NCBI GenBank assembly: GCA_030280995.1
Contig: JASXTE010000011.1
Coordinates: 26,747,317 to 26,811,316 of the forward strand
DNA: 64,000 bases
From: Hemileia vastatrix
Lineage: Eukaryota > Basidiomycota > Pucciniomycetes > Pucciniales > Zaghouaniaceae
Direction: 5' to 3'
The notes under the pieces were generated by a model. It worked only from the letters and a program-made list of their open reading frames with translations, was not told the DNA's origin and did not search any database. A program made the translations under genes and the position numbers. Below, in pieces: positions 3,023 to 62,460 of the stretch. Position 1 is the stretch's first letter, and every line of letters starts with the position of its first letter.

Positions 3023-5520
3023 TTGATTAATGGAAATAACATTGAGGTTGTTTTAGATTCTGGAGCTGGAGGAAGTGTAGTATCTGAAAAAGCACTTGCT
3101 TCAGTGGACCAAGATTATAAATCAAAACTTATGTCTATCATTTCTGAGAATTGGAGAGTTTATGGCTCTGTTTTGTCCCCCATTGGTAAATACAAAGCCA
3201 CAGTGTTTTTTAAATACAACCATGGTTTTGTAAGAGCTATTTGTGATTTTGTTTTCATGAAAAATGATTACTTAAGCAATTGGTTTATTATAGGGAATGA
3301 TATTTTAACCAAGTATGGCATAAAATTGGATCCTTCAAACCAATGTTTCACAATGGGGATGAATGGGAAGAGAAAATTTAAGATTTCCTCCCCTAAAAAA
3401 TTATTAAAACAAGAATTGAACACATGTAATTCTGTGGTTCAATATAAAGGAAGATCTACAAAGGAAATGCATGCCCTTATGTCTGAAATTGACAATGCCT
3501 CTTTTGGAGAACAACTTTCTGGTGAGGATAAAGATTCCATCATTAACTTGATAAAGTCTTTTCCTATGGCCTTTGCTCATGGGTCACATGAAGTGGGATT
3601 AGTTAAAGAGGAAATGAAACTTTCATTGTCTTGTCCATTAACTGATATACCACCTAGTTTAAAGAAGAAGCCTTATCCTGCTTCTCCCACAAAGAGAAAA
3701 TATATTGAAGACAATATCTCTACCCTTTTGAAAATGAATATTATTGAAAAGGTAGTTGAAACACCTAAATATTGTGTTATCTCACCTGTCCTAATTTCTT
3801 ATGAGAAAGATAAAGCCAGGTTATGTAGTGATTATAGAGCACTAAATACTTATACTGTTGATGATATCTACCCTTTGCCTAGAATTAGCTCTATACATGC
3901 TACTTTACAGGGAGCTAAATATATCAGCTGTTTAGATGGTAACAAGGGATATCACAAGGTACCTGTTGAGAAAAATTCTCAGAATTTTCTGATGATTGCT
4001 ACTCATATGGGTATTGATAAGTATATTAGGATGCCTTTTGGCCCTAAAATTGCCCCTTCAGTTTTCCAAAAAGTCATGGATAACACAATTCATCAAGAGA
4101 TTATTGAAGGATGGCTGATGGTTTATGTTGATGATATCATTATATTATCAAAAACATTTGAGGACCATCTTAACCACCTGTGTAAAGTATTCCAGAAAAT
4201 GGATGAAATAAATATGACACTTGCTTTGAAGAAATTTCAATTTGGTTTCCATTCTTTAAAAGTTCTTGGTCATGTTGTTTCAGGCTTACAGATATGTGTT
4301 GACCAAAACAAAGTGGAAGCCATACAACAGGTGAAGGCCAGGTTATGTGGTGATTTTAGAGCTTTAAACACTTATACTGTTGATGATATCTATTGTTTAC
4401 CCAGAATTAGCTCTATACATGCTACCTTACAAGGTGCTAAATATATCAGCTGTTTAGATGGTAATAAAGGATATCACCAGGTACCTGTTGAGGAGAAGTC
4501 TCAGAATTTTCTGATGATTTCCACTCATATGGGTATTTATAAGTATGTTGGGATGCCATTTGGCTTCAAAAATGCCCCTTCAGTTTTTCAAAAAGTTATG
4601 GATAACACATTCCATCAGGAAATAATTTAAGGATGGCTGATGTTTTACATTTATGATATCATCATATTCTCTTAAACATTTGAGGACCATCTGAACCACC
4701 TGTGTAAAGTGTTCCATAAGATGGATGAGATTAATATGACACTTGCATTGAAAAAATGCAAATTTGGTTTTCATTCCTTAAAAGTGCTTGATCATCTTGT
4801 CTCAGGTTTGCAGATATGTGTTGACCAGAACAAAGTGGAAGCCATACAACAGGTGAAAGCTCCTACCACAGTTAGAGATCTCCAGAGCTCTTTGGGAATG
4901 TGTGGAAACTACAGACAGTATATTAAAAATTATCAGGTCATAGCACTACCCCTTACCTAATCAACTAGGAAAGAGGTTGCTTTTGTCTGGAACAGTGAAA
5001 GACAAAGAGCTTTTGACACTATGAAGCATTGTTTGATTTCAGCACCAATTCTTGCTTTGCCTGACATTAATCAACCATTTTATTTATACACTGATGCCAG
5101 TTTTATTGGTCTTGGTTCTGCTCTCCATCAAAAACAAGTTATGGATGATAAAGTATCAGAAGTAGTAATTTGTTATATTTTAAGAACCTTGAGAAATAGT
5201 GAATTGAAATATGGTGCCACTCAAATAGAGTGTTTAGCAGTAGTGTGTGCTCTAGAGAAGCTACATGATTATCTGGATGACCAGAAATTTGAACTTGTCA
5301 CTGACTGAAGTGCAGTTAAATCCCTCTTAAACTTGAAAACACCTAACAGACATATGTTCAGATGGCAGCTAGCTGTTCAAGCATACAGAGGGAGGATGAC
5401 AATAATTCATAGAGCAGGTATTTTTCACTCAAATGTGGATATTTTATCAAGTTTACCTTTTCCAAATGATGACTCACATCCTGCATATGTTCCTGAAAAT
5501 GAAATAGGTCACATTCATTA
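3023..5520 (+). pseudogene. Element A protease, reverse transcriptase and RNase H
   Basis: The long open part (3023-4630, 535 codons) starts with an aspartic protease carrying DSGAGG, then the reverse transcriptase with YVDD at about 4123-4134. A second, in-frame copy of RT residues follows because of a 522-bp duplication, and the frame then stops at 4630. Fragments at 4709-4960 (RT thumb and connection), 5021-5308 (RNase H, with YTDAS and a later catalytic-type Glu) and 5333-5521 (end of RNase H) complete the order. In the second RT copy the catalytic motif has become YIYD, so only the first copy keeps the aspartate pair. Stops at 4630, 4960 and 5308 show the element is dead. Confidence 0.85.
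3814..4857 (+). repeat. 522-bp in-frame tandem duplication inside reverse transcriptase
   Basis: Unit 1 (about 3814-4335) and unit 2 (about 4336-4857) are highly similar, with a constant offset of 522 bp, that is 174 codons. The junction falls at a short shared sequence, AAAGCC against AAGGCC. Each unit spans the RT region from just after the fingers (RLC-DY/FRALNTY) through the YVDD box to the IQQVK segment. The duplication keeps the frame. The copies have since diverged at many sites, so the event is not recent. Confidence 0.9.
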
Positions 5521-5524
5521 AATA

Positions 5525-7086
5525 TATTTGGTTGATATGGAGGAAGAGCTATTACAGCTTATTCTGGATTCATATGATAAGGACACTGACTTAAAAATGT
5601 TATGTACTATATTAAATAATCCAAAGAATGCTTCAATATAAGCATTAATTAAAATCCTCCCACCAAAGTACCAGAAGGCTTTAGAAAAAGGTAAATTTTC
5701 AATTGATGAAGGCTACCTCTATTATGGAAGAAAGTTGAGTAATGTTATTGTTATTCCTCCTTCTATGAAAGAGATCATCTTGAAAATTTGTCATGATGAC
5801 ATATTGGCTGGAAATTTTGATCTTGAGAAAACAATGATCAGAATTAAGAACACTGCTTGGTGGATTAATATGTCTGAAGACATCAAACTATATGTTGAAT
5901 CCTGTGATTCTTGCCAAAAATCAAAAAGATTTACTGGTAAAAGAGCTGGATTAATTCAACATATTGAAGCTTATAATTCACCATAGAAAATAATAAACAT
6001 GGACTTTGTAACAGTATTACCCATTTCTGTGAAAGACAGTTATAAATCTTGCTGGGCTATTGTGGACAGATTCACAAAAATGTGTAAATTTATCCCTACT
6101 CACAAGGATGTTTCCACTAAAGAATTAGCTTTCTTGTGGTGGTCTTCTATTTTTAATACTTTTGGTTATTCAAAGGCTATAATCTCTGAAAGAGACCTTA
6201 AATTTACTTCTGAGTTTTGGATGTCTCTGATGGATGCATGTGGTTGTGATCTTAAGGTTTCTACTGCCCATCACCCCCAGACTGATGGATTAGCTAAAAT
6301 AATGATTCAGACCTTAGAGGACATGATAAGAAGGTATTGTGTCTTTGGCATTGAGTACAAAGAAAATTACAGATTCACTCATGATTGGGTTACCTTACTT
6401 CCTGGGTCAGAACTTGCTTAAAATAGCACTGTTCATTCTGTTACTCAGAAAAAGCCTTTTGAGCTCTGGCTGGGATATGTTCTAAATACTCCTGCCCAAA
6501 TTCTCAAAAATCAAATACATAAATTGCATTTACATCCTGGTGTAAAATATTTTCTTAAAATGCAACAACTTTACAAAAGTCATGCTCAAAAATGTATTGA
6601 AAAATCTTTTGAATATGAGAAGAAGGGGTGGGACAAATCCCATAAAGAAAACACTTTAAAAAAGGGTGATGAAGTACTGATTTCCACAGTCCACTTCAAT
6701 TTAAATGGTAATAACAAATCAAAAGACCCATTTTTAGGTCCATTTGTTTTTAGAAGAATGGTTGGTGATAATTCAGTTTAAGTAATCCTGTACTCTCCAT
6801 ATGACAGAAAACATCCTATTTTTCTTATATCTCTTCTGAAACCTTACACATCCAATAGTTATTTATTTCCCAAAAGGAGGGGAAGACTAAAGAAACCCCT
6901 AAGGAAATCACTGAAACAGAAGAAATTGATAAAATTCTAAATGACAGAATAATTACTGCTGAAAAAGGTACTGAATACTTATTGAGATTCAGGAATAAAT
7001 CTTCTGAATATGATTCTTGGATAACAGGGAAAGAGATATCTAATCTTCCTACTATTCCAAAGAAATATAAAAAGAAAAAATCATAG
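5525..7086 (+). pseudogene. Element A integrase with C-terminal chromodomain
   Basis: Fragments give an HHCC-type zinc region (5735-5986, CDSCQKS), the catalytic core (5999-6421, with MDF and ISERD), a linker (6524-6781) and, after a further stop, the tail HPIFLISLLKPY and a chromodomain ending at the TAG around 7084. The chromodomain reads EIDKILNDRI, then an EYLLRF strand and a SWITG motif; such domains direct integration to modified chromatin (family knowledge). In the core the expected Glu of the TDG-E motif reads Lys (TDGLAKI), so the catalytic triad is broken. Stops interrupt it in several places. Confidence 0.8.
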
Positions 7087-31499: not shown

Positions 31500-33120
31500 A
31501 GAGGGAGAAGGACATTTCATTTTTAGAAGAGGAGAGAGTTGTGTTAAAGCATCTTTATGGGAAGCCGTACAAGATTCTAGTTGTTTGCTATGAACCATGG
31601 AAACAGAAACCAAATCCTATACCTGCTGCTTTAAAGGAAGATTATATCAAAGTCATTAGAGAAAGAATTCAAACTGGATTATATGAAAAATCATCATCAA
31701 GCTATTCAAGTCCAGTATTCTGTATTAAAAACCCTAATGGAAAGCTTAAGGTAGTTCATGCTTTAAGTGAACTAAATAGGGTTATGATTAAACATGCAGG
31801 AATACCACTAGCACCAAGGAGTTTGTAGAGATGTTTTCAGGGAGAGTGTGTTATGGTTTAGGAGATATACTGGGGGGAAATGATGAAAGAGATTTGCATC
31901 CATACTCTAGACCTCTTACAAACTTTTATACACCACTTGGATAATTACAATTAACAAGATTACCTCAAGGAGAAACAAATTCAGTCTCTGTATATCAAGC
32001 TCAGATGGCTTGGACTTTACATGAAAAAATTCATAAATAGGCTAGTATATTTATTAGGGGGTATCAAAGATAGAAATCTTCCATTTCAAAATACCTCTTT
32101 TTTCCACCAAATTAACCATGATTATTTTTTAAAATATGCCATATTGTGCCCCAAAAAACACCTTTTTACTGAGAATTAATGTCAAGTTTTTGGCTTTCTA
32201 TTTGTGTTGTGAAATACCTTTTAAATAATTACAAATCTCTAACTTTGATACCCCCTAATGTAGATGGTAGAATAAAAAGACCTTCAGCAGATTATGGTTA
32301 TAAAGTATTGAAGGAGAATCCAGAAATACAAAAATCTATCTGGGAATACGCTGTTATTTTAGAGAGGACTTTTTTTAGGATAGAAGAGGCTGGTTTAAAA
32401 ATTTCAGGTTCCAAATTTTCTTGTTGTGTGCCAGCTTTGGAGATCTTAGGCCATATGGTATGTAGAGATGGTAGGATTATGTTGAAGAAGAAATTATATA
32501 AAATTCAGTCCTGGCCAAGACCCAAGAATATGACCAAAGTCAGAGGGTTTTTAGGTGTTTGTGTTTATGTCAGAATTTTTATCAAGGAATTTCCTTCATT
32601 GGCTACTCCTTTGAGACAGTTGACTAGGAAGGATTCTGAATGGGAGTGGGATGGAGAGTGTGAAGAGGCATTTATTAGGTTAAAGAAAGTAGTTGGGGAA
32701 GATATAATCCTGAACAAGTTTGATTATGGGAAAGATGCAGGCTGGATTTATTTAGAAGTGGATTCAAGTCAGATTGCTTCTGGGGCGGTTCTGGATCAAA
32801 TGGATAAAGCAGGTTACATAAGACCATTCATGTATGAATCTGAGGTTTTTACTGAGGTGGAATCAAGATATTTTCAACCAAAATTAGAGCTTTGTGGTGT
32901 GTAAAAAAACTTAAAGAGACTTCAAAATATTTTTTTGGGAAAACACTTTGAATTGCTAGTTGATTTCAAATCTTTGATTCAAATGATCAATTCCCCTAGT
33001 TTACCAAATGGGCCCATGACTGTATGGGTAGCTTTTATTCAACAATTTTATATTGATTTAGTTCACAAGCCTGGAAAGATTTTTATTATTCCTCATGGAT
33101 TATCAAGAAGACCACCTACT
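31500..33120 (+). pseudogene. Element C reverse transcriptase and RNase H, split by a MITE
   Basis: 31541-31828 gives the RT fingers (PIPAALKEDYIKVIRERI and FCIKNPNGKLKVVHALSELN). A further stretch to about 32055 gives GLGDI, TRLPQGETNS and MAWTLHEKIHK, after which the MITE at 32057-32255 interrupts. Beyond it the frame resumes with DYGYKVLKENPEIQKSIWEY, LEILGHMV and FLGVCVYVRIF, followed by RNase H (LEVDSSQIASGAVL, QPKLELCGV) and a conserved end HKPGKIFIIPHGLSRRP. The residues at the MITE edge, FIN then VDG, sit where the catalytic F-I-D-D is expected, so the active site is lost. Stops at 31826 and 32902. Confidence 0.8.
32057..32255. mobile_element. 199-bp MITE, copy 2 (GGGGGTATC ends)
   Basis: Ends GGGGGTATCAAAGATAGAAA and, reverse-complemented, GGGGGTATCAAAGTTAGAGA. 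The body matches copy 1 (27045-27242) along its length, including CCATTTCAAAATACCTC and GGCTTTCTATTTGTGTTGTG. TA flanks both sides, and removing the element with one TA restores an in-frame coding sequence (TTT ATT AAT GTA GAT) of the reverse transcriptase. It therefore entered while, or not long after, the host frame could be read. Confidence 0.9.
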
Positions 33121-33206
33121 GAAGATGATTCTGACTCAGATGAATTGGATGAAGATATACCTGTAATCAAGGCCAGCACAAAAGGTTCTGAAGACATTCC
33201 TTACCT

Positions 33207-33344
33207 CCCCCATGAGGTTAAACTGGCTGGATTAACATTTTTCAATAAATATGAAGAATACTTTCCCCATGAGGTTAAACTGGCTGGATTAATATCTGTG
33301 GATAGAGATGATGAATAGCTCCACCATGAGGGTAAACTGGAAAA
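33207..33344 (+). repeat. 57-bp coding repeat with CATGAGGTTAAACTGG motif
   Basis: CATGAGG(T/G)TAAACTGG occurs at 33211, 33268 and 33325, exactly 57 bp apart, within the acidic linker after RNase H (protein PHEVKLAGL twice; the third lies past a stop). Similar motifs occur in the untranslated region behind the integrase (35040-35150 and 36535-36905). Confidence 0.75.
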
Positions 33345-35035
33345 TAATAAAAATATGATAAATTATGTGCTTGGGGATTTTGATGATGGTGTAGATAAAT
33401 TTGGTAAAAAAGAGGTTAAATATTTTGTGTATATGGAAGAGGATGTTGAAATAGTGTGGGATGGTAAAAATTTTGTGAATGGTGTATATGTTGAAGTTTT
33501 ACAAAATTTGGTTAAAGAGAGGATGGGTTTTAATAAAAATTTGGTTCAAAAGAGGTTGGATGAAGATTATTATTATGATGATGAAAAGAGTAAAGGGGAA
33601 AAAGAAGGAATTGTGGATGATAAAAGGCTAGAAGGTTCAAAGATGGAAATTTAAAAAATCTTTTATGATAAAAGGCAAAGTCAAGTTTTGAAGTTATTGG
33701 CTCATTTTTGTACAGGTGATCTAGGAAACAGGGAAGTTTCTGTAGATATAATATTAATTGATTTTCATGATGATGTTTGGGGACAGACTTGATTTCATTA
33801 TAAAATGGTTAAATATTTATTAACATTAGAAAAGGTGGAAAAAAGAGATAATGATGAATGGGTGGCTATCAAAGGGAATTCACTGGCATTTTATCTCTTC
33901 AGAAGAAGATTAATGAGAAGGAGGTATCCAAATCCTCAAGTAGTTATTACTTAAAATAAAGGGCAATAATTGGTTATGAAATCACTGAATGAAGATCTTG
34001 GGCATAGAAGAGTTGGTGAAACTTATAGACAAATTGCTGGTAGATTTTGGTGGCCTGGTATGAAGATGACTGTTAAAAAATGGGTTCAGTCATTTGAAGA
34101 ATGTTAAAGAAAAGTTATTTAAGGTCAAAGAAACCTGGAAATGTAACCTGTGAAAAAACTCTTTTTGGTAGGATTATTTTGGATGCTGTTCATGTTAAGG
34201 AGGGGAGATATAAATATTTGATTGTAGCCAGTGATGATTTATCTGGTGGGTAGAGGCAGCGCCTCTTATTAATTTGAATTCCAGGAATGTGGCAGATTCT
34301 TAATGAAAAATTAAGTATATAGGTATGGAGTGATGAAGTTGGTAAATTTTGATGGAGGTCCTGAATTTGGGACAGAGTTTAAAGAGGCTATATAAAAATT
34401 TGGATTAAAGGTAAGGGTAGTAACCCCATATTATCCTGAAGCTAAAGGAATGGTAGAAAGAGAGGATGCTTTAGTTAAAATTTGTGGAGCAAGTGCTGAA
34501 AAGGGGGGGCACCATTAAACTTTAGTTTTATTTGCTGAAAGAATCACTTCCAAAAGGAAAACTGAATATTCACCATACAGACTAGTTTTTGGAGAGAAAA
34601 CAGTTTTACCAGTTGATTTTGAGGCTGAATCATATCTTGGAGTAGATTGGGACACAGTCAATACTACTGAAGAATTATTTTGTGCAAGAATGGTTCAGGT
34701 AGAAAAGAAAGAAGAGACTCTAGAAAAGGTATATTCAAAAATGAGAAATATTAGGAACCAGTCAGTTAGATATTGGGTAAAGAGGTTGGCTCACAGATTA
34801 AGGAAGCCATTGAAAACTGGAGATATGCTTTTGGTGTATAATAGGAGTTTGGAAAGTCAGTGAGGAAAATTTTTTGAAGATAGGTGGAATTGACCATACA
34901 GAGTTAGAGAACAGGCATTTGGGGGTTCATATTTGTTAGAAGAGTTGGATTGAGTGGTTTTTAAAAATAGGGTAGCTGCTGATTAAGTCAAGTGGTTCTA
35001 TCCTAGGGGCACAAGGTGCGTTGAAGTATAAATCT
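33345..35035 (+). pseudogene. Element C integrase
   Basis: After an acidic spacer (33355-33654) the integrase can be followed in fragments: LGHRRVGETYRQIAGRFWWPGMK (N-terminal zinc region, ending SFEEC), a core with VNFDGGPEFGTEF and VVTPYYPEAKGMVERED, then FAERITSKRKTEYSPYRLVFGEKTVLPVDFEAESYLGVDW, and a tail PLKTGDMLLVYNRSLES with WFYPRGT near 35010. Stops and frameshifts occur at about ten places. The core keeps D in FDGGPEF and E in MVERE. The pattern is the long integrase of the basidiomycete lineage; no chromodomain follows. Confidence 0.8.
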
Positions 35036-40392: not shown

Positions 40393-40440
40393 TCATTGAA
40401 AATTTTTTACATGAACTCATATAATATCCTTAATTTTAGG

Positions 40441-41626
40441 CCACATGTCACCTCATGTATGCATGCAAGCAACTTGCTAGCTTTTTTACCTCTGTATGTT
40501 TTTGAACTTCAGGATATATTGCATACATGAGGCGACATTTCGCCTCATGTATTCATGCAAGCAACTTCCTTTTTGTTTTACTTCTGTATTTTTTTGAACT
40601 TAAGGATATATTGCATACATGAGGGGACATGTCACCTCATCTATGCAATAACAAGATCGCTCATAAAAAATAGTGCAATACATTTTTTAATCAGCACTCT
40701 TGTTATTGCATACATGAGGCGACATGTCTCCTCATGTATGCAATAACATTCTTTAAAATCCTTCATTTAGGTGAGCAATGCATTGGTGCATACCTACCAT
40801 ACCAAAGAAAATACACATCATGGAACATTTTTACATGCATACATGAGGCGACATGTCGCCTCATCTATGCAATTTTTTTTTGAAGTTTAACTTATATAGG
40901 TAAGAAATGCACTTGTGAATGCCTACCATACCAAGTGAGTTCCCAGAATGTGACTTGTTTACATGCATACATGAGGCAACATGTCGCCTCATCTATGCAT
41001 GTAAACAAGTTGCATGATGTGGATTTTCTTTGGTATGGTAGGCATTCACCAATGCATTTCTCACCATAATGATGAAGTTCAAAGAATTTTATTGCATATA
41101 TGAGGTGACATGTCACCTCATGTATGCAATAACAAGAGTGCTGATAAAAAAATCTATTGCACTATTTTTTATCAGTGCTCTTGTTATTGCATACATGAGG
41201 TGACTTGTCCCCTCATGTATGCAATATATCCTTAAGTTTAAAACCATGCAGAAGTAAAAAAGCAAGCAAGTTGCTTGCATGCATACATGAGGCGACATGT
41301 CTCCTCATGTATGCAATATACCCTTGATCTCAAAAACATACAGAAGTGAAACAGAAAGCAAGTGGCTTGCATGCATACATGAGGCGACATGTCGCCTCAT
41401 GTATGCAATATATCCTCAAGGTTAAAACAATACAGAAGTCAAAAAGGAAGCAAGTATCTAACATGCATACATGAGGCAACATGTCGCCTCATGTATGCAT
41501 GTAGGCAACTTCCCTACCCCTTTCTCATATGACTTTCCACAAAGCATAAGATGAGGCAAATTGTTGCCTCATCCTTATGCAGTTGCACCATTTTCTGATG
41601 ACATGAGGAAATTCTTTGCCTCATGT
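40441..41626. repeat. Array of about 13 palindromes with ATGAGGCGACATGTCGCCTCAT core
   Basis: Near-perfect palindromes of 34-40 bp are centred at about 40539, 40630, 40725, 40854, 40983, 41110, 41205, 41298, 41390 and 41482, with a half copy at 40441-40466 and two divergent ones at 41544-41580 and 41601-41626. The core is GCATACATGAGGCGACATGT followed by its mirror. Spacing is 90-130 bp. Intervening sequences are themselves inverted copies of one another (for example CTACCATACCAAAGAAAAT at about 40793 against its complement at 41023), so the whole block is a palindrome of palindromes. Variation in the core is largely CG to TG or CA. Confidence 0.9.
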
Positions 41627-50760: not shown

Positions 50761-52344
50761 GGGAGTTTTTGATACAGGGGCAACAAATCATGTCACTGGA
50801 GATTTATTTTTTCTCACTAACTTTAGAAGACTTAAAAAATCTAATTTCAGTTAAAACAGCTACTGATCTTAATTCTTCTTTCATTATGGGATATGGAAAC
50901 CTCACAATTATAGGATGTGGAAAAATTTATTCACACTTAAAAATGTCTTTATTTGTGATAAAACTCATTCTAAATTAATTTCTCCTGTTGATATTCTTCA
51001 GAGCAATTAATGACAATCATGATTTCATTGTTACAAGAGAAAAAAATATTTTCTTAAATTCTCCCTTATTATCATCTGATTTTAAATGGACTATTGATCT
51101 AGTTTACCCTTGTAAATTAGACATTCATTCATTTGAAATAAATTTTTTTAACTCTTTGTCATCCGCTAGCCTGCCCACACCTTTTTTCCCAACTCCAACT
51201 GTGACAATTTCTTATCTGAAAGCTGTTACATATTCCAACATGGACTGGAATCGACACCTGTGTCACAAGAGAAGCAGAGTTCTCCAGCAGATTTTGAAGC
51301 TAGATTTATGCAAAGTTTCCCCCTTGACTGTTTCTTCCTGTATACTAAATTGCAATTTGTGTGTTTTATCTAAGAGAAAGCAACAAAATGCTTGCATTGC
51401 AAAGAAAAGAGATCATGGCTATATGGACCTAGCTGGCCCCTTGGTTGACATCACCAGTGAAGGAAAAATTTATGTGGCACCCTTCAGAGAATCATTCTAT
51501 ACTTATGGTGAAGTATTCATTTTAAAATGGAATCAGATGTCCTTGAAGTGTTTGTTGATTTTAATAGTAGACTCAAAAAATGTTTCTGGCAAAAATTAAA
51601 AATCCTCTGAACCAATAATGGAATGGAATAAATGAATCACAAATTCTCTGATTTCCTATCATCTGCAGGTATCCTACGTGAAAATTTGATGCCATACCAT
51701 CATGAGAAAAGTGGTGTTGCTGAGAGTTTTAATGAAACCATTGGTGAAATTGCTTGCACTATTCTTCTAGGATCCAACCTCCAACCTAACTTCTGGCCAC
51801 TAGCATACTTTTAGGCTTTGTATGTACATAACAGGCTACCCAATTTAGGTCTGACAAAGAGCACTTGTTATCAAATGATCTTTAAAAAAAAGCAGACCTA
51901 TCACCCATTAAAGTTATTAATCAGTGGGCTGACACTCATATCCCTACTGAAAAAAGAATGAAAATTCAACCCCATACTACATGTTGTCGTGTGGTAGGAT
52001 TCCTGAACAGAGGTAAGGTATGGATATTTTGGCACCCTGATACAAGTTCTTTTTTACAGACTGCTATGGCCAATTTTATCCCTGAAAGCCAAGGAAATGA
52101 TGAAAAAATCCTCTCTTCCCCTCTGCATGATTCACAAACTTCCAAAGCAACTTATCACTCATCCTTAATATTCTAAATTTTGGAAATTTCACTGTGGAAA
52201 AGAAAATTTCCAAAAAAAATACAATGGTCAAGTATATTACAAATAATGCAGTGGATTTATCTGACCAGATACCTTGCACCTATAAACAGGCAATGTGAAG
52301 TGCTGATGCCAAAAATTGGAAAATAGCTTTCAAAAATGAACTCA
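50761..52344 (+). pseudogene. Copia protease and integrase
   Basis: The protease motif FDTGATNHVTGD starts at about 50767. The pre-integrase region with DWNRHLCHKRSRVLQQILKL and CNLCVLSKRKQQ (51240-51375) provides the zinc-binding His/Cys, and GYMDLAGPLVDI starts the core. A stop at 51597 is followed by the second half (MNHKFSDFLSSAGI, MPYHHEKSGVAESFNETIGE), whose E is the third acid. Reading then degrades until element D is met at 52345-52349. The last codons before D (AFKNELNN) continue at 60854. Confidence 0.75.
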
Positions 52345-52349
52345 ATAAC

Positions 52350-53123
52350 TGTCACGCGCCACGTGACACTCGAGGCGAAATTAACTCAATAAATCAATAA
52401 TATCGAGTCCTACATCTATACTCGAAGCGCAGAAAGCAATTCTCCATAGCAACTGCGATTTTTCCTTTGTGTACTTACTATTTAACTGCGCTAGCCTAAA
52501 CTCTAAATCTAAATTAGTCAATCTCCCAATAGGGTACCTTAGTCCTTTTCAATAAGCGACGCACAGCGCTAGGATCAACGAAATAGTACAGTAGTAGTTT
52601 TTTCATTAAAGTTTTGTTAATTAATTAAAAAGGGGTATATTGAGCATGGACGGATATTTAGTGAAGAGGGTCTAAGTGTATGTTAGTAATGGTCAATGGA
52701 ATGGGAATACTGCGATGGAAGGGAGGTCAATGCGAGGAGGAACAAAGGATATAAAAGGAGTTGGGTATTTGGTTCGATATTCCTTAGAATTAAATTATAA
52801 TATTGTATTTACATTAATAGTGAAAAAACCTTAGAAGTTAAAACATTGTTATTGTATCTTTCTTTTACCTTCTCAATATTCATTTCTAAATCCTAAATCT
52901 TTGACTATTGAGTTTCCAACCCTTCGTGAGATTTTAAGAATTATTATTACCTTGGAACTAGTTTATAATTCTTCTCGAACAAACCTCGAACCTATAGCTA
53001 TTACTTCGAGTGACCTTCGAATAATTTCCTCGAATCATTCCTCTGTGCTTCGAAGAAGTTTCTAAATCCCTCATCTCACTTTCAGGAACATCCTCGACCT
53101 TGTGCGTAGGTCGTCCGGTGACA
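52350..53123 (+). repeat. Element D 5' LTR
   Basis: It starts TGTCAC and ends GTGACA, a 6-bp inverted terminal repeat. The first 19 bases, TGTCACG-CGCCA-CGTGACA, can form a hairpin of 7 bp. Compared with the 3' LTR it differs at 52457, 52557, 52926 and 53112; in each case this copy has CG and the other has CA or TG. A TATA box lies at 52750-52756. Confidence 0.95.
52750..52756 (+). promoter_or_regulatory. Element D LTR TATA box
   Basis: GGATATAAAAGGAG fits a TATA box. Transcription is predicted to start about 37 bases on, at or near G52787, because the 13 bases from there are exactly complementary to the primer site after the LTR. The 3' LTR has the same box at 60475-60481. Confidence 0.65.
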
Positions 53124-53196: not shown

Positions 53197-54384
53197 ATGG
53201 CACCTGTTCAACGCACTCCTCCTACGGGCGCTACTACTAGAGCTTGCGCTAGAGGCAGGCCAACAGCCACAAGGTCTGTTTCTCGCACTCACTCTTTGGA
53301 ACCACTCGACCTTAGGGAACGGCAACACTCAGTTCAATCTGTAGAAGACATTCCACAAGATTTTGAGGATTCTAGTGATGAAGAAGAAGGAGAGGATACA
53401 ATGCATGAGGCACCATCCGCCCCTGCCAATCACCCTTCTGGCCAATCCTCAGAACCGGGACCATCTAACTCTCTGGAAGATTTCATGAGACTTTTTATGA
53501 AAACCCTTTCGAATCCAACGTCTTCAGAGGGATCTAAGTTCAAAACTCCTTCTATGAAATCTCCTGACAAATTCGACGGAGATCACCCCAACAGATTGCG
53601 ACCCTTCTTGCAAACCTGCAAGCTACTGTTCCATAATGACCCTCGAACCTTTAACAGCGACCAATCAAAGGTTGTTTACGCTTCTTCATTCCTAGCCGGG
53701 AAAGCAGCAAGATGGTTCGAACCTTATCTACTCATGCTTTCTTCGACAGAAACCCACTTACTTATCAATAATTGGGAAAAGTTCGAAGACCAACTTTTTA
53801 CGTTGTTTGGGGATCCTAATGAAACGGACAACGCAGAAATTGAACTTGATTTTCTTCGCATGAGTGATAATGGTAAAGCCTCTGAATATATCTCGAACTT
53901 CATAGCACTTCAAACTCGAGTAGGTTGGAATGATGCTGCCCTTAAGTATCATTTCAAGAAAGGACTTCCTTCGAGGATTCTGGATCAATTAAATCTTCAC
54001 GGTCAGAAGATGACTACTTTAACGGATTTAATGGCTCAAACCCTCGAACTTGACGGCGTTTATCAAGGACGACTTCAACATCGTCGATATGCCAACAAAT
54101 CTCAAGGCCTAAATTTTAAATCGGGACCTTCTTCACACCCACAACCAAATCAATCCTCCTTGACTCAATCCAAACCCAATAAGGGAAAGGATAAAACTCG
54201 ACCAAAAGGCTCAACCCCAGGCGATATCAGCAAAGTACTGGATCCTAAAGGGGAAATTAAAGAAGCTGAGAGGAAGAGAAGAGCAGATAATGGGTTATGT
54301 ATGTATTGTGGGGGTAAGCACAAGTTGGAAGACTGTGTAAAGTTGAAGGAAAGAGAAGGTACTAGTTCGAAGTCAAAAAACTAG
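53197..54384 (+). CDS. gag: Element D gag polyprotein
   Basis: The 395-residue protein begins at an ATG in good context (A at -3, G at +4). It has a basic Arg/Thr-rich N-terminus, an acidic Ser/Glu tract (about residues 55-70), the capsid-type region SPDKFDGDHPNRLRPFL with AARWFEPYL, and a zinc knuckle CMYCGGKHKLEDC near residue 370 (spacing C-X2-C-X3-H-X4-C, one residue shorter than usual). It ends at TAG 54382-54384, directly on a -1 slippery heptamer. It would form the particle and package RNA. No lesions are seen. An earlier ATG at 53165 opens a 59-codon frame that overlaps the gag start out of frame. Confidence 0.9.
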   Translation: MAPVQRTPPTGATTRACARGRPTATRSVSRTHSLEPLDLRERQHSVQSVEDIPQDFEDSSDEEEGEDTMHEAPSAPANHPSGQSSEPGPSNSLEDFMRLFMKTLSNPTSSEGSKFKTPSMKSPDKFDGDHPNRLRPFLQTCKLLFHNDPRTFNSDQSKVVYASSFLAGKAARWFEPYLLMLSSTETHLLINNWEKFEDQLFTLFGDPNETDNAEIELDFLRMSDNGKASEYISNFIALQTRVGWNDAALKYHFKKGLPSRILDQLNLHGQKMTTLTDLMAQTLELDGVYQGRLQHRRYANKSQGLNFKSGPSSHPQPNQSSLTQSKPNKGKDKTRPKGSTPGDISKVLDPKGEIKEAERKRRADNGLCMYCGGKHKLEDCVKLKEREGTSSKSKN

Positions 54385-54417
54385 TAGATAGTTTACTTGT
54401 GTGCAAAGCAAACTATC
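54375..54417 (+). promoter_or_regulatory. Programmed -1 ribosomal frameshift signal
   Basis: The heptamer A AAA AAC (54375-54381) is in the gag phase required for -1 slippage and is followed at once by the TAG stop. Five bases later a stem-loop can form: GATAGTTT (54387-54394) with AAACTATC (54410-54417), extended by CTT with AAG inside one mismatch. Heptamer, 5-nt spacer and stem match the classical arrangement. The pol frame is -1 relative to gag and open from 54366. Confidence 0.85.
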
Positions 54418-57400
54418 TTATCTCTCCCAGTGCACAGAACCTCCATGTCTTAAGGACTGGAGTTGCCTTAAACCGCTTGAGATTCATTCTTTTTAAGGAG
54501 GATATCCCCTTCAGTTGTCTTATAGACTCTGGAGCTTCAATTTCTTTTGTTAGTTTATCTTTTGCCGAGAAGCTTCAACTAACATTTACAGATATCGATC
54601 GAACTCCCATCTATTTGGTCGAATCAGAGGAACCCAAATATTGGGTAAGTAAGAAAGTTTTATGGGTTTTCAACTTTCCGAATTTTCCCCCCTTTGAGTG
54701 GGAATTACCAGTCTTGGACGCCCCAAGGATGGACGATACCATTCTTGGCCATGACTTTTTAACGTATTGGAATCCCGAAATTGATTGGACCCGGGGATTG
54801 ATCACCCCACGCTCTAAGTATATTTCTGATTCTTTAATGCAGGTCAATAGGGAGTTAAACAACCCGCCTGACAACGTCCTGCTAGAGGACAAATCTCTGC
54901 CAGATGACTTGCAAGCATCTGTACCTTCTTTAAATGAGCAATTGGCTAACCCTTCTAGCTCGATGACTTCACTCGAAGAGGATTTAAATTGCCTCGAAGA
55001 AATCGAATTATGCTCTCTCAATACAGGTATCACCTCGACAGATTCTCTCAAAGATGAAGAGGATGACCAAATCAACGTTGAAGCCATTAAATCAACTCTA
55101 CCGGAAATCTACCACGATTTCCTCGATGTTTTCTCAATCCGCAAGGCCGATAAGTTACCACCTCATCGACCCTACGACCATCAAATAGAGTTAATAGGCC
55201 CAGTACCTCCGGCAGGTCCTGTCTATTCTCTATTGAAGGACGAATCTCAAGTTCTTCGAGACTACATTGCAGAGAATGTAGCCAAAGGTTTCATCAGAGC
55301 CAGTAAATCTCCAACCGGCTCCCCAGTCCTCTTTGTAAAAAAGAAGGACGGTAGTCTTAGGTTGTGTGTTGACTATAGACAGCTCAACACAGTCACAAAG
55401 AAAAATGCATATCCTGTTCCTCCTATGTCATTACTTCTTACCCTTTTCAATGGTGCTAATTTCTTTTCTAAAATTGATCTTAGAGGCGCTTACAATCTTA
55501 TTCGCATTGCGGAAGGTCATGAACCACTGACTGCAATGCGCACTAGATTTGGTAGTTTTGAATATTTAGTTATGCCTTTTGGATTATGTAACACACCTTC
55601 AACTTTTCAAACTTTTGTTAATGATATCTTTCAAGATGTTGTTGAACAATTTGTAGTCGTCTATTTAGATGATATTTTAATATTCTCGAAAACACTGGAT
55701 GAACATATTCATCATGTTCGACAGGTCCTAAATCGTCTTCGAGATCATGGTCTCTACGCCAAGCATAATAAATGCGAATTCCACCTCAAATCAATTGATT
55801 TTTTGGGGTTTACGTTGTCCACTGACGGTTTAGTCATGGATGACAAAAAAGTCCAGAAAATCCTGGAATGGCCTGAGCCCAAAAACATTAAATCACTCCA
55901 AGGATTTTTGGGTTTTGCAAACTTCTATAGAAGATTTATTAAAGATTACTCTAAAACTATTTCCAATCTTACTTCTCTTCTTAGAAAAGATATTCCTTTT
56001 GTTTTTACTTCTACAGCGCGAAAGGAATTCGAAGCACTAAAAACGGCGTTCACCACAGCCCCAATTCTTCGGCATTTTGATCCTTCGGCCTCGACAATAG
56101 TTGAGACAGATGCGAGCGATTATGCTATTGCAGGGGTCATCTCCCAATTAAATCCTGAAACAAATTTGTTTCATCCTGTTGCTTTTGAGTCACGCAAACT
56201 CATAGCCGCGGAATTAAATTATGAAATTCATGACAAAGAGCTTTTAGCTATTATCCATTGTCTTAAAAAATGGCGTTCTTTTCTTCTCAGCCTAGATAGT
56301 CCTTTTCAAATTTTAACTGATCACAATGCTTTGAAATACTTCATGTCTTCTAAAGTGTTAACCAGGCGTCAAGCCAGGTGGGCTGAACTTTTGTCTGAAT
56401 TTTCTTTCTCTATTTCCTATTGCCCAGGAAAAAACTGCATTGTCCCAGATATCTTGTCACGTCGGGACGACGTTTACCCACAGCGGGGGGACGCATTTGC
56501 TGACAAGAACCCAGCAAATGTGCAATCAATCTTCAACGAATCAATGTTAACAACTCATCAACTTAATTCGATGACAATTCAATCTTTTCAAAATCCACTA
56601 TCCAACATCCTCGAAGCTCAGTCGAAGGACGATTATTGTTTAGGGTTAAAAGACAAAATACTCTCAAAGCAAGGGGCCAAAAGATTTAGTATTGAATCAG
56701 TTCTATTAGTCTTCGAAGGTAGAGTAGTCATACCCGACAACAATGAGATAAAATTATGGATTTTCAATAGTCGACATGATTCTCCGTTAGCTGGTCATTT
56801 TGGGGTTGATAAAACCTACCAGTTAATAGCGAGGGATTTCTTCTGGCCAGGTATGACCAAGGAAATCAAGGCCTATATAAAAGCTTGTTACGAATGTAAT
56901 AGGAATAAGGCTCCCCGTCACCGGAAGCATGGGTTGCTTCAACCACTTCCTATTCCCTCTAAACCTTGGGAATCTTTATCGATGGATTTCATTTCTCAAC
57001 TTCCTATTTCTAATGATTTTGATGCTATATTAGTAATAGTAGATAGATTTTCAAAAATGTCTATTTTTGTTAAAACCACTACTACTGCTACAGCAGAAGA
57101 TTTGTCAAAATTGTTTCTAGAATATGTATTTTCTAAACACGGCTTACCAAATGACATTATTTCAGATAGAGGCTCATTGTTTGTATCCACATTCTGGACC
57201 CAACTGTGTCGACAACTCAATATCACGAGGAATCTCTCCACGGCCTATCACCCTGAAACCGATGGTCAAACAGAAAGAGTTAACCAAATCCTTGAACAAT
57301 ATCTTCGAATGTATGTCAGTTACCAACAAGACGATTGGACCACATGGTTACCATTGGCCGAATTTGCTTATAATAACTCGACTCATTCTTCGACATGACA

Positions 57401-58031
57401 ATCTCCCTTCGAAACCATTTATGGACGACATCCTCGATTCAACTCAATTCATGTAGGAGCTAATCATCCTGCAGAACATTATCTTCGAACTATATCACGA
57501 CTCCAAGAAGAACTTAAAACAAATTTGGAATCAGCGATTCGAAGATACAAGGAACAGGCCGACAAACATCGACAATCTGCTCCTTCCTTTAAACCAGGCG
57601 ACAAAGTATGGCTCGATGCACGAAACATCCGAACAAAAAGACCATCAAAGAAACTGGCTGAAAAGCGCTTGGGACCATTCGAAATCGACTCTGAAGTCTC
57701 TAAAACTGCATTTCGACTCAAGTTACCTCCTAAATGGCAGGCGATTCACCCTGTTTTCCATGTATCTCTCCTGGAACTGGCTCGAGAAATATACCCGGGC
57801 AAGAACCAACCCCCTCCGGAACCGGTCGAAGTAGAAGATCATCTAGAGTGGGAAGTAAGTCGTATCCTTGATTCAAGAATACGCAAGGGGAAACTTCAAT
57901 ACCTCGTGGAATGGGAAGGCTTCCTCAATGACTCAGACAAAACATCCTGGGAACCAGCCATCAATGTTTCCAATGCTCCTGAACTCCTAAAATCTTTTCA
58001 TTCGAAATATCCTTTAAAACCAAAACCTTAA
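54381..58031 (+). pseudogene. pol: Element D pol (protease, RT, RNase H, integrase, chromodomain) with one TGA
   Basis: Read in -1 frame from the slip site, it has 1216 residues. Order: aspartic protease (IDSGASISFVS), RT (LRLCVDYRQLN, SKIDLRGAYN, MPFGLCNTPSTF, VYLDDILIFSK), RNase H (ETDASDYAIAGV, ELLAIIHCLKKW, LTDHNALKYF), integrase (zinc region with AGHFGVDKT and CYECNRNK; acids in MDFI, ISDRG and TDGQTERVNQ), a linker with GDKVWLDARN, HPVFHVSLL, and a chromodomain (EVSRILDSRIRKGKLQYLVEWEGF, then SWEPA). All catalytic residues I can check are present. A single TGA at 57396-57398 cuts the integrase core after its third acid; it probably arose from CGA. After it the same frame runs to the natural stop. 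Confidence 0.92.
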
Positions 58032-59014
58032 AATTTCTTTATTTAAAATTTTCTTTTCTTTTCTTTCTTTCTTTAAAATCTAAAACACCTCTTAAATTTC
58101 TTAGCCTTGTTTTCTTTTTTTCTCTCTTCTTTTTCTTTCTTCTCCTTCTATAAATTTCCTCCAAAACCAACCAAAATAAAATCAAAATTAAAATTAAATA
58201 CAATAAAAAAAATAAAATAAAATAAAAATTAAAATTAAATAAAATTAAATTAAATTAAAATAAATTAAATAAAATAAAATAAAATAAAATAGAATAATAA
58301 AATAAAATAAAAAACTCAAAAATCTCTCTAAATATTTTCTTCTTTTCTTTTTTCAATTCTTTAAATACATTCTTTTCTTAAATTTAAAATTCTCTTCAAA
58401 ATTTTCTCTTTAAAAAATTTTTTTTATTCTCTCATTTAAAGACTTTCTTTTCTTCGAATCATCAAATCCTGTATGGCACGACCATTTCCTCGAACTTAAC
58501 TTCAACCCCTGAATCTCCCTATAATAATTCTTCGAAACAAATAAATCTTCTTTTCAAACTCTCTTAAATTCTACCCTTTGTTTTTTTTTCTTTTCTTTCT
58601 CCTCTTTTTTTTTAAACTAAAATTTCTTTAAAAAAAAAAAAAAAAAAAAAAATTTAAAAAAAAAAAAAAAAAAATCCTCAATTTAACAACTCATCTCAAT
58701 CACAAAACCGTTTCTTTTTCTCTCTCTTTTCTTACATAAAAGTTTTCCTTTTAAACACTAAAACTTCCTTCAATTAAAACAACCTTTTTTCTTTCTTTAA
58801 AATTCTTCTTTCAAATTCTAAAAATTTTTTTTAAAAACTTCTTTTTTCTTCTTTTTTTTTTTTCTCTTCTTTTTCTCTTTCTCAAATCTTGTAAAATTAA
58901 CAACATTCACCTACAATATAAAAAAAAAATAATACTAATAATAAAATAAAATAAAAATAAAATAAAACTAAAATACAATTTTTTCTTCTACTTCTTTCCA
59001 TCTCCTTTTCATTT
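58032..59014. other. AT-rich low-complexity spacer between pol and the antisense gene
   Basis: Pyrimidine-rich TTTCTTTCTT runs, an AAAATAAAATAAAAT-type repeat (58180-58310), a poly-A block (about 58630-58674, interrupted by TTT) and further CTTTTT runs. It separates two genes that face each other (pol on plus, antisense gene on minus) and would contain both 3' ends. Homopolymers make it a likely place of length variation or assembly error. Confidence 0.7.
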
Positions 59015-59966
59015 TCAAATTTTTTCTTTTAATTTTTCTCGAACCAATCTTTTCATTTTCTCCAAAACTACCCTTATCTCCTTCCTGCATTTATCAAATA
59101 CCTCCTCCTCTCCTACCAGAACCACCTCTCCAATCTCCAAGAGCTCCTCCGCCACGTCGAAGGAAGCAGCGTCAATAATAGCGTCGACCTCCCCACATAG
59201 TTCTTCCGCGAACCTTACTCGTCGACCTTGACGAGGTTTCTTCGACCACACCTGGTCCAGGGTGTCTTCGGGCTCTTCAACCACTTCCGTGGCCGGAGGG
59301 TTTGCCTCAGTTGGTATAACCGGCGCGGGTTCCGCAATCGGCTCTTCCAGGTTATTCGATGTCTAAAACGTGACTCATCAGTAACTTCATCGTTGAAATA
59401 AAACAATTAAAACTTACCTCGAAGATGGGATCAGGCTCCAGAAATAACCTGGGCACCACTCCGACTTCTACCTCTCTCTCTTCCTCATCGTCCTCGATGA
59501 CCACCCGACGTTTCTTGGGTGCCTGCCCTGGAACAGGGACTTCATCTTCATCCTCCTCCACCAATTCATCGACCTCTTCCTCGACACCTCGCTTCGAACT
59601 CGTGGCCTGGGTTACCCAGGTTGAGATCTTGTTGTTCATCTCCTTATCATTTTCCCCCACCGATTGTTCATCTTTGATCGAGACATCCCAAATGTCTTCG
59701 ACCACCTCTTTAGTCTTTGGAACTACCCAAAATTTTGTTTTTGTGAATCGATTTTCGATTTCCACGTTCTTCGTCAACGCATCGCACGCCACTCGCCGCC
59801 AACGGCAAAACTCGCATTTCTGGCGAGGGCCTCGAGTCGCCGTACTTTTGACACAGAAATATTCCATGCTTTCACAAGCCGTGCAAGTCCGTGAAAACTG
59901 TCGTGTGATTATTCCCCCATCCGCTTTAGGGTGTGGAGGCGTGGGTGTGGGGGTAGGGCAGTTCAT
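59015..59966 (-). CDS. Antisense two-exon gene for a nuclear-looking Zn2Cys6-like protein
   Basis: Exon 1 runs 59966-59418 (183 codons from ATG), exon 2 59362-59015; the 55-bp intron between (59417-59363) begins GTAAGT and ends TTTTAG at a codon boundary. The 298-residue product has six Cys at residues 28, 31, 38, 51, 54 and 61: C-X2-C-X6-C-X12-C-X2-C-X6-C, the spacing of fungal Zn2Cys6 clusters. The basic stretch lies in the second half (CEFCRWRRVAC) and not the first, the reverse of the usual order. An acidic region and an NLS-like APKKRRVV (about 149-156) follow; exon 2 has KKPRQGRRVRF and a probable C-terminal coiled coil. It lies wholly inside element D. Role unknown; a regulator of the element or of host genes is possible. 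Confidence 0.75.
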
Positions 59967-60058
59967 TATAAAATAAATAATTGAGAGATGCGGGAAAAAA
60001 GTATTAGACAAGTGAAATTAGTGTGGGAAGATGGTTCAAGCTCAACGGAGTTCGCGTT

Positions 60059-60066
60059 CTTATACC
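60059..60066 (-). promoter_or_regulatory. Candidate TATA box of the antisense gene
   Basis: On the minus strand CCCGGGTATAAGAACGCG lies about 95 nt before the gene's ATG (59966), between it and the 3' LTR boundary at 60075. The position suits a promoter of its own. The usual purine tract directly before a 3' LTR is not seen here; this position is instead taken by GCATC and the TATA segment. Confidence 0.45.
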
Positions 60067-60074
60067 CGGGCATC

Positions 60075-60848
60075 TGTCACGCGCCACGTGACACTCGAGG
60101 CGAAATTAACTCAATAAATCAATAATATCGAGTCCTACATCTATACTCGAAGCGCAGAAAGCAATTCTCCATAGCAACTGCAATTTTTCCTTTGTGTACT
60201 TACTATTTAACTGCGCTAGCCTAAACTCTAAATCTAAATTAGTCAATCTCCCAATAGGGTACCTTAGTCCTTTTCAATAAGTGACGCACAGCGCTAGGAT
60301 CAACGAAATAGTACAGTAGTAGTTTTTTCATTAAAGTTTTGTTAATTAATTAAAAAGGGGTATATTGAGCATGGACGGATATTTAGTGAAGAGGGTCTAA
60401 GTGTATGTTAGTAATGGTCAATGGAATGGGAATACTGCGATGGAAGGGAGGTCAATGCGAGGAGGAACAAAGGATATAAAAGGAGTTGGGTATTTGGTTC
60501 GATATTCCTTAGAATTAAATTATAATATTGTATTTACATTAATAGTGAAAAAACCTTAGAAGTTAAAACATTGTTATTGTATCTTTCTTTTACCTTCTCA
60601 ATATTCATTTCTAAATCCTAAATCTTTGACTATTGAGTTTCCAACCCTTCATGAGATTTTAAGAATTATTATTACCTTGGAACTAGTTTATAATTCTTCT
60701 CGAACAAACCTCGAACCTATAGCTATTACTTCGAGTGACCTTCGAATAATTTCCTCGAATCATTCCTCTGTGCTTCGAAGAAGTTTCTAAATCCCTCATC
60801 TCACTTTCAGGAACATCCTCGACCTTGTGCGTAGGTTGTCCGGTGACA
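60075..60848 (+). repeat. Element D 3' LTR
   Basis: 774 bp, the same length as the 5' LTR. Differences at 60182, 60282, 60651 and 60837 all lie in CpG sites of the other copy. It is followed by the target duplication ATAAC. Confidence 0.95.
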
Positions 60849-60853
60849 ATAAC

Positions 60854-62460
60854 ATGTCAAATATGGATGTATGGGATATTGTTCCACTTCTGCTTGGCAA
60901 AACTGTTACAGGAGCTAGATGGGTATTCTCTGTAAAATGGGGTGAATTCGGTAAGGTTATCAAACACAAATCAAGGTTTGTAGCACAAGTCTTCAGGAAA
61001 ATAGAGGGGACTGACTTTAATTATATGTTTCCCCAAGGGTTATGTTTGCTTCCCTATGGTTGATGCTTATATTGGCCGCAACGTACCAATGGCCTATCTG
61101 TACCTTTGATTTTACAGAAGCATATCTGCATAGCCCTCTGGACAAAGAGATCTATGTTAGCCAACCAGAAGTTCTTGAATCTAAGGCCCCAGGGAATGTA
61201 TGTGGGCTGAAGAAGGCCCTGTATGGATCCAAACAGGAGGCTAGGTGCTGGTGGAAACATCTAAGTGGAATCCTCTTTCAGCCTGGCTATCAACCAAGCA
61301 ACCAGGATGCTAGTGTTTATGTTTTGTCAAAAATGGGTTATAAGGGTATGTTATTAATACATGTGAATGATGGTGTGGTCATTGAAAGTGAAATTGTGGT
61401 GATACAAGAGTTAGACAATGATATAGGTAAACATTTACAAGTAAAATGGTCTGATGGTATATCTTCCATAGTGGGTTTAACAAATTCCAGATGTGACCAG
61501 GGCTTGTCAACAAAATTCCACTGGAACACAATGTAATAGGCTTAACCTCTCATTCACCACTGCCGGCTGGCCTCTCATTAGTTTCCCCGCATGACAAAAC
61601 AAACACTCCTGTTGACCCAATGAATTCTTATCTATTATTGGTTCCTTATTTTGTCTTGTGGCTGGATCCAGGCTGTATCTTGCTTATCCTGTTAATTTCC
61701 TGGCAGGCTATTCTGAAAGACCAGGTGAACCCAAATGGAGGGCACTTAACCATCTGCTCAGGTACTTCCAATTTACCAAGAATATGAAGTTCCATATTTT
61801 TCCTTCCATGAGAAAAACACCTAATACTGAAGTGTATTGTGATGCTTCATGGGGTGGTGAATTTTCATAAGCTACTGGTGGTCATGTCTTACTGGTAAAT
61901 AACTGTTTAATTATATGGCAGTCTAAGAGGCAATCATGTGTCACTAAATCTTCTCTTCACTCAGAGCTTATGGCTATGTTGAATACAATGAGACAAGCAC
62001 TATGGATGAGAAACCTTCTTCATGAAATGGACCTTTGTCATGGGCCAACAAAGTTATTCTGAAACAACAAGGGTGCTATTGTGGCTGCTACTGATAATCC
62101 CTCTGAAAAAAGATGTAGACATGTACATTGGGATTTTTACTTTGTTAATGAGCAGGTCCACAGAAAGGAGATTAATATTGAATGGGTATCTTCTAAAGAT
62201 CAGATAGCTGACTTACACTACTACACATTTTTTTTGCCTTGCAGCGCAACAATAACCCAACAGTTATGAAACAATTGTTTTTGCACTTAAGACTCCCTTA
62301 AGACCTTTAAGTGCTAAAAACAATTTTTACATAACTGTTGCATAATCATTGCACCACTTCTGCATGCAAGACAAAACAAAAATTTCTTGCAGTGTTATTA
62401 ACAAAGAATCTGGGCCCAAATGTGTGGCAAGAGAAATGTTGTCTGCTAGGTGGTTTATTA
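60854..62460 (+). pseudogene. Copia reverse transcriptase and RNase H
   Basis: Continues the copia pol across element D: MSNMDVWDIVPLLLGKTVTGARWVFSVKW, then, after a frameshift near 61040, FDFTEAYLHSPLDKEIYV and KKALYGSKQEARCWW. The catalytic box reads IHVNDG in place of YVDD. RNase H follows (WRALNHLLRYFQF, VYCDASWGGEF, KSSLHSELMAML, RHVHWDFYF, IEWVSSKDQIADL). The 179-bp MITE at 62216-62394 then interrupts, and the end LTKNLGPNVW with GGLL is read after it. Stops at 61534 and 61868. Confidence 0.82.
62216..62394. mobile_element. 179-bp CACTA-type MITE in copia RNase H
   Basis: Starts CACTACTACACATTTTT and ends TTTCTTGCAGTG. Inner parts are complementary (CAACAGTTATGAAACAATTG with CAATTTTTACATAACTGTTG). 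TTA is duplicated (62213-62215 and 62395-62397); removing one restores the RNase H frame (ADL then LTKNLG). Related to the element at 63027-63220 through GCACTTAAG and CTTTAAGTGC. Confidence 0.85.

Follow-up and report, generated by a model that had tools for sequence, protein, structure and literature searches.

The window analysed here, a 64-kb stretch of AT-rich DNA (by composition) from Hemileia vastatrix, contains a Ty3 element, element D, made up of the following parts (positions are those of the window):

52345-52349, no strand: left target site duplication, ATAAC, read from the sequence
52350-53123, plus strand: 5' LTR of 774 bp, TGTCAC...GTGACA, from the sequence and self-comparison
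53197-54384, plus strand: gag (Retrotrans_gag, E=2.1e-9), with a CCHC-like motif near its end found by eye
54399-57398, plus strand: pol with protease, reverse transcriptase (RT), RNase H and integrase (Pfam), with an in-frame stop at the end in the window copy
57399-58031, plus strand: remainder of pol with SH3_Tf2-1 and chromodomain (Pfam)
58040-59014, no strand: AT-rich low-complexity spacer between pol and the antisense gene, from the sequence, with many indels among copies
60075-60848, plus strand: 3' LTR, beginning with the palindrome TGTCACG-CGCCA-CGTGACA, from the sequence
60849-60853, no strand: right target site duplication, ATAAC, read from the sequence

The two LTRs are 99.4-99.5% identical in a self-comparison of the window, and the 5-bp duplication bounds the element on both sides. 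Together with the chromodomain in pol, this bears out the young Ty3 setting proposed in a first-pass annotation of the same DNA. As in chromoviruses, RT, RNase H, integrase and chromodomain are all detected in pol by Pfam. The in-frame stop of the window copy (57396-57398) is missing from 37 of 40 aligned copies. A protein search with pol returned 7967 relatives; among the 120 listed, eight belong to the rust Austropuccinia psidii, the best of them being 60% identical. By eye, we saw no purine-rich tract immediately upstream of the 3' LTR (60060-60074), the expected place of the plus-strand primer.

Self-comparison detected no further copies of element D within the 64 kb. Two more Ty3-like pol stretches (3287-6445 and 32332-34113) share 27-42% identity with its pol, in pieces. 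The flanks (52300-52349 and 60849-60920) read by eye as a Copia reverse transcriptase stretch split in two, and element D seems to sit nested inside an older Copia element. At 40405-41499, ten alternating palindromic repeats of the ATACATGAGGCGACATGTCGCCTCATGTAT type build a large inverted repeat with arms of 434 nt (88%). Elsewhere in the genome, some copies of element D stand in head-to-tail rows (G000 C34:28893641-28917791, C84:14590277-14613979, C67:5009701-5017973 and C84:25812225-25822812); their spacing, about 7.72-7.73 kb, matches one LTR together with the inner part and suggests tandem arrays with shared LTRs.

Between pol and the 3' LTR, the minus strand carries a predicted spliced gene with these features:

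60060-60066, minus strand: GGTATAA, candidate TATA box, from the copy alignment
60010-60074, minus strand: core-promoter stretch adjoining the 3' LTR, recognisable in four of four branches of the family (copy alignment)
59418-59966, minus strand: exon 1, 549 nt, 183 codons (translation, copy alignment)
59784-59885, minus strand: six-cysteine motif, residues 28-61 (sequence, copy alignments)
59499-59519, minus strand: basic PKKRRVV, residues 150-156 (sequence, copy alignments)
59363-59417, minus strand: intron, 55 bp, phase 0, GTAAGT...TTTTAG (translation, copy alignment)
59375-59384, minus strand: branch-site-like TTACTGATGA
59015-59362, minus strand: exon 2, 115 codons plus TGA, with a C-terminus conserved around EEVFEKCRKEIR (translation, branch comparison)

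Translation of the joined exons gives 298 residues without a stop, confirming the two-exon gene with its phase-0 intron that had been annotated from the window. The gene (59015-59966) lies wholly inside the element, as had also been claimed, and has the position of an antisense additional ORF of Ty3 elements (aORF-3R), lying past the end of pol (58031), before the start of the 3' LTR (60075) and opposite to gag-pol. The candidate TATA box proposed for it stands 94 nt upstream of its ATG and held up in the alignments: TTATACC (GGTATAA on the strand of the antisense gene) is kept in 13 of 14 distinct aligned copies, and the core around it is recognisable in all four branches, unlike the 5' leader between this core and the ATG, which shows no recognisable conservation across branches. 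The palindrome at the LTR start (60075-60095), 8 nt from the TATA-like box, contains CACGTG and is likewise kept in 13 of 14 distinct aligned copies. The LTR start including this palindrome is among the best-conserved LTR stretches, for which recognition by integrase could alone be the cause. A scan for bacterial-type promoters, a model not relevant here, gave results close to chance level.

To relate the window copy to its family, we searched the genome assembly (747.6 Mb, 791 contigs). A DNA search with the final part of pol gave 3637 candidates; the 40 best were scored and, leaving out the window's own, 39 sister copies were fetched. The antisense gene is in place between pol and 3' LTR in all 39 of these copies, and all 39 have GT-AG at the intron. 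Both exons are open and in frame, each in its own coordinates, in 26, and 21 of the 39 are free of both coding indels and stops. A protein search with exon 1, in which 150 of 6868 candidates were scored, listed only matches of at least 93% identity; this sample is biased to intact copies because it was ranked by protein score. Older relatives were sampled by choosing, from 150 listed PF24626 (SH3_Tf2-1) hits among 24374 candidates, 19 with regard to match and ORF length. Sixteen belong to the same superfamily, and 14 of the 16 match both antisense exons; one (L076, the same as L090) retains only about the first 175 residues of the antisense protein, and the sequence of another (L092) was covered in part only. 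The three remaining hits come from another family and had no match to the antisense gene in the 3.5 kb downstream. Presence in most copies, a further mark of an aORF-3R, is thus seen in all 39 copies chosen by pol and in the 16 superfamily hits, 14 of them with both exons.

By DNA identity of the antisense gene to the window, the copies fall into branches D, B (83-86%; four copies, one incomplete), C (about 72-73%) and E (68-72%). Further searches added 39 copies each to branch C (87-92% to copy L071) and branch E (86-89% to copy L091), and because of these identities C and E look like old waves. Old copies are mostly broken: one of 11 in branch C, and none of three in B or of three in E, has both exons open. 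None of the three E copies examined has the window's start codon; an ATG lies one codon upstream instead.

The splice signals recur throughout: GTAAG is found in 79 of 88 aligned rows and TAG in 86, and 83 rows have the branch-site-like TTACTGATGA. The 68 rows of branch D average 0.04 gap columns per copy over the 549 nt of exon 1, 0.99 over the 55 nt of the intron and 1.10 over the 345 nt of exon 2, so that indels per base are by far densest in the intron and exon 2 carries some as well. L071 and other C copies have one entire additional codon in exon 2.

We then compared the reading frames, counting dN/dS by the Nei-Gojobori method with the window copy as reference. Against 11 copies, the spliced antisense frame gave dN/dS of 0.09-0.49, with an upper 95% bound below 1 in ten of them, and the remaining two antisense frames gave 0.56-4.28. 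Against eight copies of branches B, C and E the values were 0.07-0.14 for the spliced frame and 1.08-2.20 for the other antisense frames, at dS of 0.5-2.7, which is saturated for C and E. Fixed differences at codon positions 1, 2 and 3 number 38, 18 and 117 between D and C (p 3.5e-20), 12, 7 and 49 between D and B, and 50, 27 and 108 between D and E. Shared changes among 40 young copies gave pN/pS of 0.40 for the true frame, against 1.20 and 1.15 for the other antisense frames; the cysteine region alone has 12 nonsynonymous and four synonymous shared changes (pN/pS 1.37) and by this measure looks loosely constrained. Young-copy pN/pS is a weak yardstick, because the chromodomain end of pol, taken as a control, also gives 1.34.

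The dN/dS values and the codon-position pattern rule out pure neutrality or chance, and they amount to conservation as a protein, the third mark of an aORF-3R. The first-pass annotation had staked its gene on other copies keeping frame and intron with dN/dS below 1, and this is what we found (GT-AG in 39 of 39 copies, dN/dS 0.07-0.49), with many old copies decayed. The comparisons of copies show that the spliced frame is under selection, with splice signals and a TATA-like core recurring in four branches. On this basis it is almost certain that element D carries a selected, spliced, protein-coding antisense gene.

Two other readings bear directly on these counts. The first starts from a sense ORF on the plus strand (59425-59976, 183 aa, serine-rich), which might be the selected product, with the antisense frame as its mirror. 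This ORF is open in 31 of 39 young copies, compared with 29 of 39 for antisense exon 1, and dN/dS in its frame is 0.18-0.25; the low value in exon 1 arises because wobble positions are shared with the antisense frame. However, all 11 C and all three E copies examined have the sense ORF closed, whereas antisense exon 1 is open in two of the former and one of the latter. Its replacements are non-conservative (mean BLOSUM62 of -0.64 to -1.31, against +0.10 to +0.55 in the antisense frame; exon 1, five copies), and it leaves exon 2, the splice sites and the branch-site-like motif unexplained. We therefore give this reading almost no credence. In the second, which is proposed in the available text of PMC7264820, the antisense RNA itself matters, through dsRNA or interference with the sense RNA, with the protein as a by-product. 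The conserved TATA-like core would fit such a role, but the codon-position pattern and a between-branch dN/dS of about 0.1 show that the protein is selected, and we regard this explanation as highly unlikely.

The divergence of the antisense gene differs from that of gag-pol. Compared with the B copy L070, element D is 95-97% identical in gag-pol, 85% in the antisense gene and 90% in the LTR. For the C copy L071 the corresponding values are 90-93%, 72.5% and 74%, and for the E copy L095 they are 86-93%, 68% and 74%. The pol of one C and one E copy is still 88-93% identical to that of element D, and their gag 90% and 86%. In five copies the antisense gene exceeds the sampled end of pol in synonymous divergence by a factor of 5 to 13, for example 1.89 against 0.20 in L071 and 0.56 against 0.085 in L070. 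On a plain reading of these sequence distances, gag-pol and the part comprising LTR and antisense gene would have different histories. For the B copy, identity is 94-96% over the final part of U5, 88-92% over U3 and 95-96% over gag; in the C and E copies U5 is also diverged (72-84%). A single template switch in the spacer, which predicts that U5 tracks gag-pol, fits the B copy but not C and E, and we record the mosaic as an observation. Recombination is only suggested, because the order of distances agrees between the parts, decay of old copies raises all values, and U5 tracks gag-pol in the B copy only. It is possible, although we hold this idea tentatively, that the LTR and the antisense protein together make up a single control cassette that can be exchanged. 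If so, the lineage would pair a self-made regulator with a matching promoter on a shared gag-pol chassis, and each wave would have its own regulatory specificity.

The antisense protein itself has six cysteines at residues 28, 31, 38, 51, 54 and 61 (C-X2-C-X6-C-X12-C-X2-C-X6-C), each present in 62-64 of the 64 gap-free exon-1 rows (69 rows in total). Zn2Cys6 binuclear clusters have the spacing CX2CX6CX5-12CX2CX6-8C, with basic residues in the first half. The likeness to this class proposed in the first-pass annotation stands as far as spacing goes, which is shared with fungal regulators of the Gal4 type, and so does the observation that the basic half comes second (CTACESMEYFC first, CEFCRWRRVAC second). 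Membership does not: the Pfam Zn_clus profile scores 9 bits against a cut-off of 21 (E=2), its first half aligning weakly with the second half of the motif. With the basic half second, Pfam below its cut-off, and AlphaFold models of the antisense protein (pLDDT 32 and 37) giving no usable fold, we do not class it as Zn2Cys6. PKKRRVV, which we take to resemble the SV40 nuclear localisation signal, was found at residues 150-156 together with the acidic stretch that had been annotated, in fact with acidic runs on either side; its KKRR core occurs in eight of 11 other rows, with every branch represented.

No Pfam domain was accepted in the antisense protein; matches to acVLRF1, Augurin and TRAM were rejected as under their cut-offs. 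The only two matches to solved structures (E 1.5 and 6.8) were taken as chance. A word-limited search of 5.8 billion proteins found no relative at E<=10, either for the whole product (1834 candidates) or for the cysteine region (one candidate), and searches of IMG/VR with the antisense protein and with pol confirmed no relatives. Judged by its sequence, the product is a cysteine-rich protein that is probably metal-binding and probably nuclear.

Antisense genes of this position have precedents. The brtn antisense gene of Boty was reportedly described by Zhao et al. in 2011 (Virology 417:248). Boty-like elements of Botrytis cinerea, which carry brtn (PMC7264820, PMC8365987, PMC4227169, PMC5987419, in their available text), are like element D fungal Ty3 elements with a chromodomain pol and an additional antisense gene. 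A fungal element with such a gene is therefore less unprecedented than the first-pass annotation supposed (PMC7264820, PMC8365987, PMC4227169). We liken the two genes by description, and the available parts of those descriptions do not mention splicing or cysteine richness of brtn. The annotation's reference to antisense extra genes in plant Ty3 elements agrees with Grande and Retand (PMC7264820, PMC11963269, available text). The antisense protein of maize Grande is nuclear and has its own promoter, according to the accessible part of PMC7264820. Its gene23 resembles the element D gene in lying antisense between pol and the 3' LTR; own promoter and nuclear protein are shown for Grande and predicted for element D. 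It differs in coming from a plant, and the same text does not mention a cysteine motif. An antisense TRP28 protein predicted to bind DNA is found in 97% of Retand clusters (PMC11963269, available text), and the main text of that paper does not contain the word intron, in contrast to the intron of the element D gene. TRP28 (PF04195) differs from the element D protein, whose Pfam hits up to E=10 do not include PF04195.

HBZ of HTLV-1 has a spliced form and is a bZIP protein. It is a nuclear antisense protein (PMC11963269, available text). Like HBZ, the proposed element D product would come from an antisense transcript from the 3' LTR side and is predicted to be a nuclear regulator; the protein type is different and HTLV-1 is a retrovirus, making this an analogy of working and not of kinship. 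The function of extra antisense genes in Ty3 elements is not known, according to the available text of PMC7264820. The kind of gene is thus already known, from plant Ty3 elements and fungal Boty, and the element D gene is, on the sequence comparisons above, a spliced, cysteine-rich, long-kept variant of it. What is new within the literature searched is that the intron is conserved, that the protein has a cysteine module, that no relative of it was found and that the gene has persisted through four branches.

We propose, with a probability of roughly 55%, that the protein works in the nucleus and regulates the transcription of its own element. On this view a chromodomain Ty3 element would carry a genuine accessory gene, transcribed leftward from the core promoter that adjoins the 3' LTR on its inner side. 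The transcript would be spliced once, and the 298-residue protein translated from it would combine a cysteine-rich, probably metal-binding module with acidic runs, a basic nuclear signal and a C-terminus that is conserved. This protein would enter the nucleus and serve the element there; the likeliest way is that it binds the LTR or chromatin and tunes sense transcription, much as antisense HBZ does in HTLV-1.

A real gene could instead encode a protein that acts in the particle or at integration, as a nucleic-acid chaperone or as a nuclear import or targeting factor. A cysteine-rich basic module with a nuclear localisation signal would fit this, and import of the pre-integration complex into the nucleus is raised for antisense proteins in the available text of PMC7264820. 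We nevertheless consider it rather unlikely, arguing that an antisense promoter core and splice signals of its own uncouple the gene from sense RNA and particles and better suit a regulator. The protein might also be directed outward, to host chromatin, silencing or rival elements, to which its acidic runs and nuclear signal and the many copies (3229 candidates) would lend themselves; in the places examined, however, the gene is seen only within the family of element D, and we find outward action unlikely.

As a regulator of its own element or in another role, the gene provides a family marker, one that our protein searches did not detect elsewhere. The gene further shows how a retroelement can keep an intron: the RNA copied in retrotransposition is the sense RNA, from which the antisense intron is not removed, and an intron-containing gene can therefore be maintained. 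With its conserved intron, its promoter core and four branches of natural variants, element D offers a compact fungal case in which expression, nuclear entry and action on its own LTR would be directly testable.
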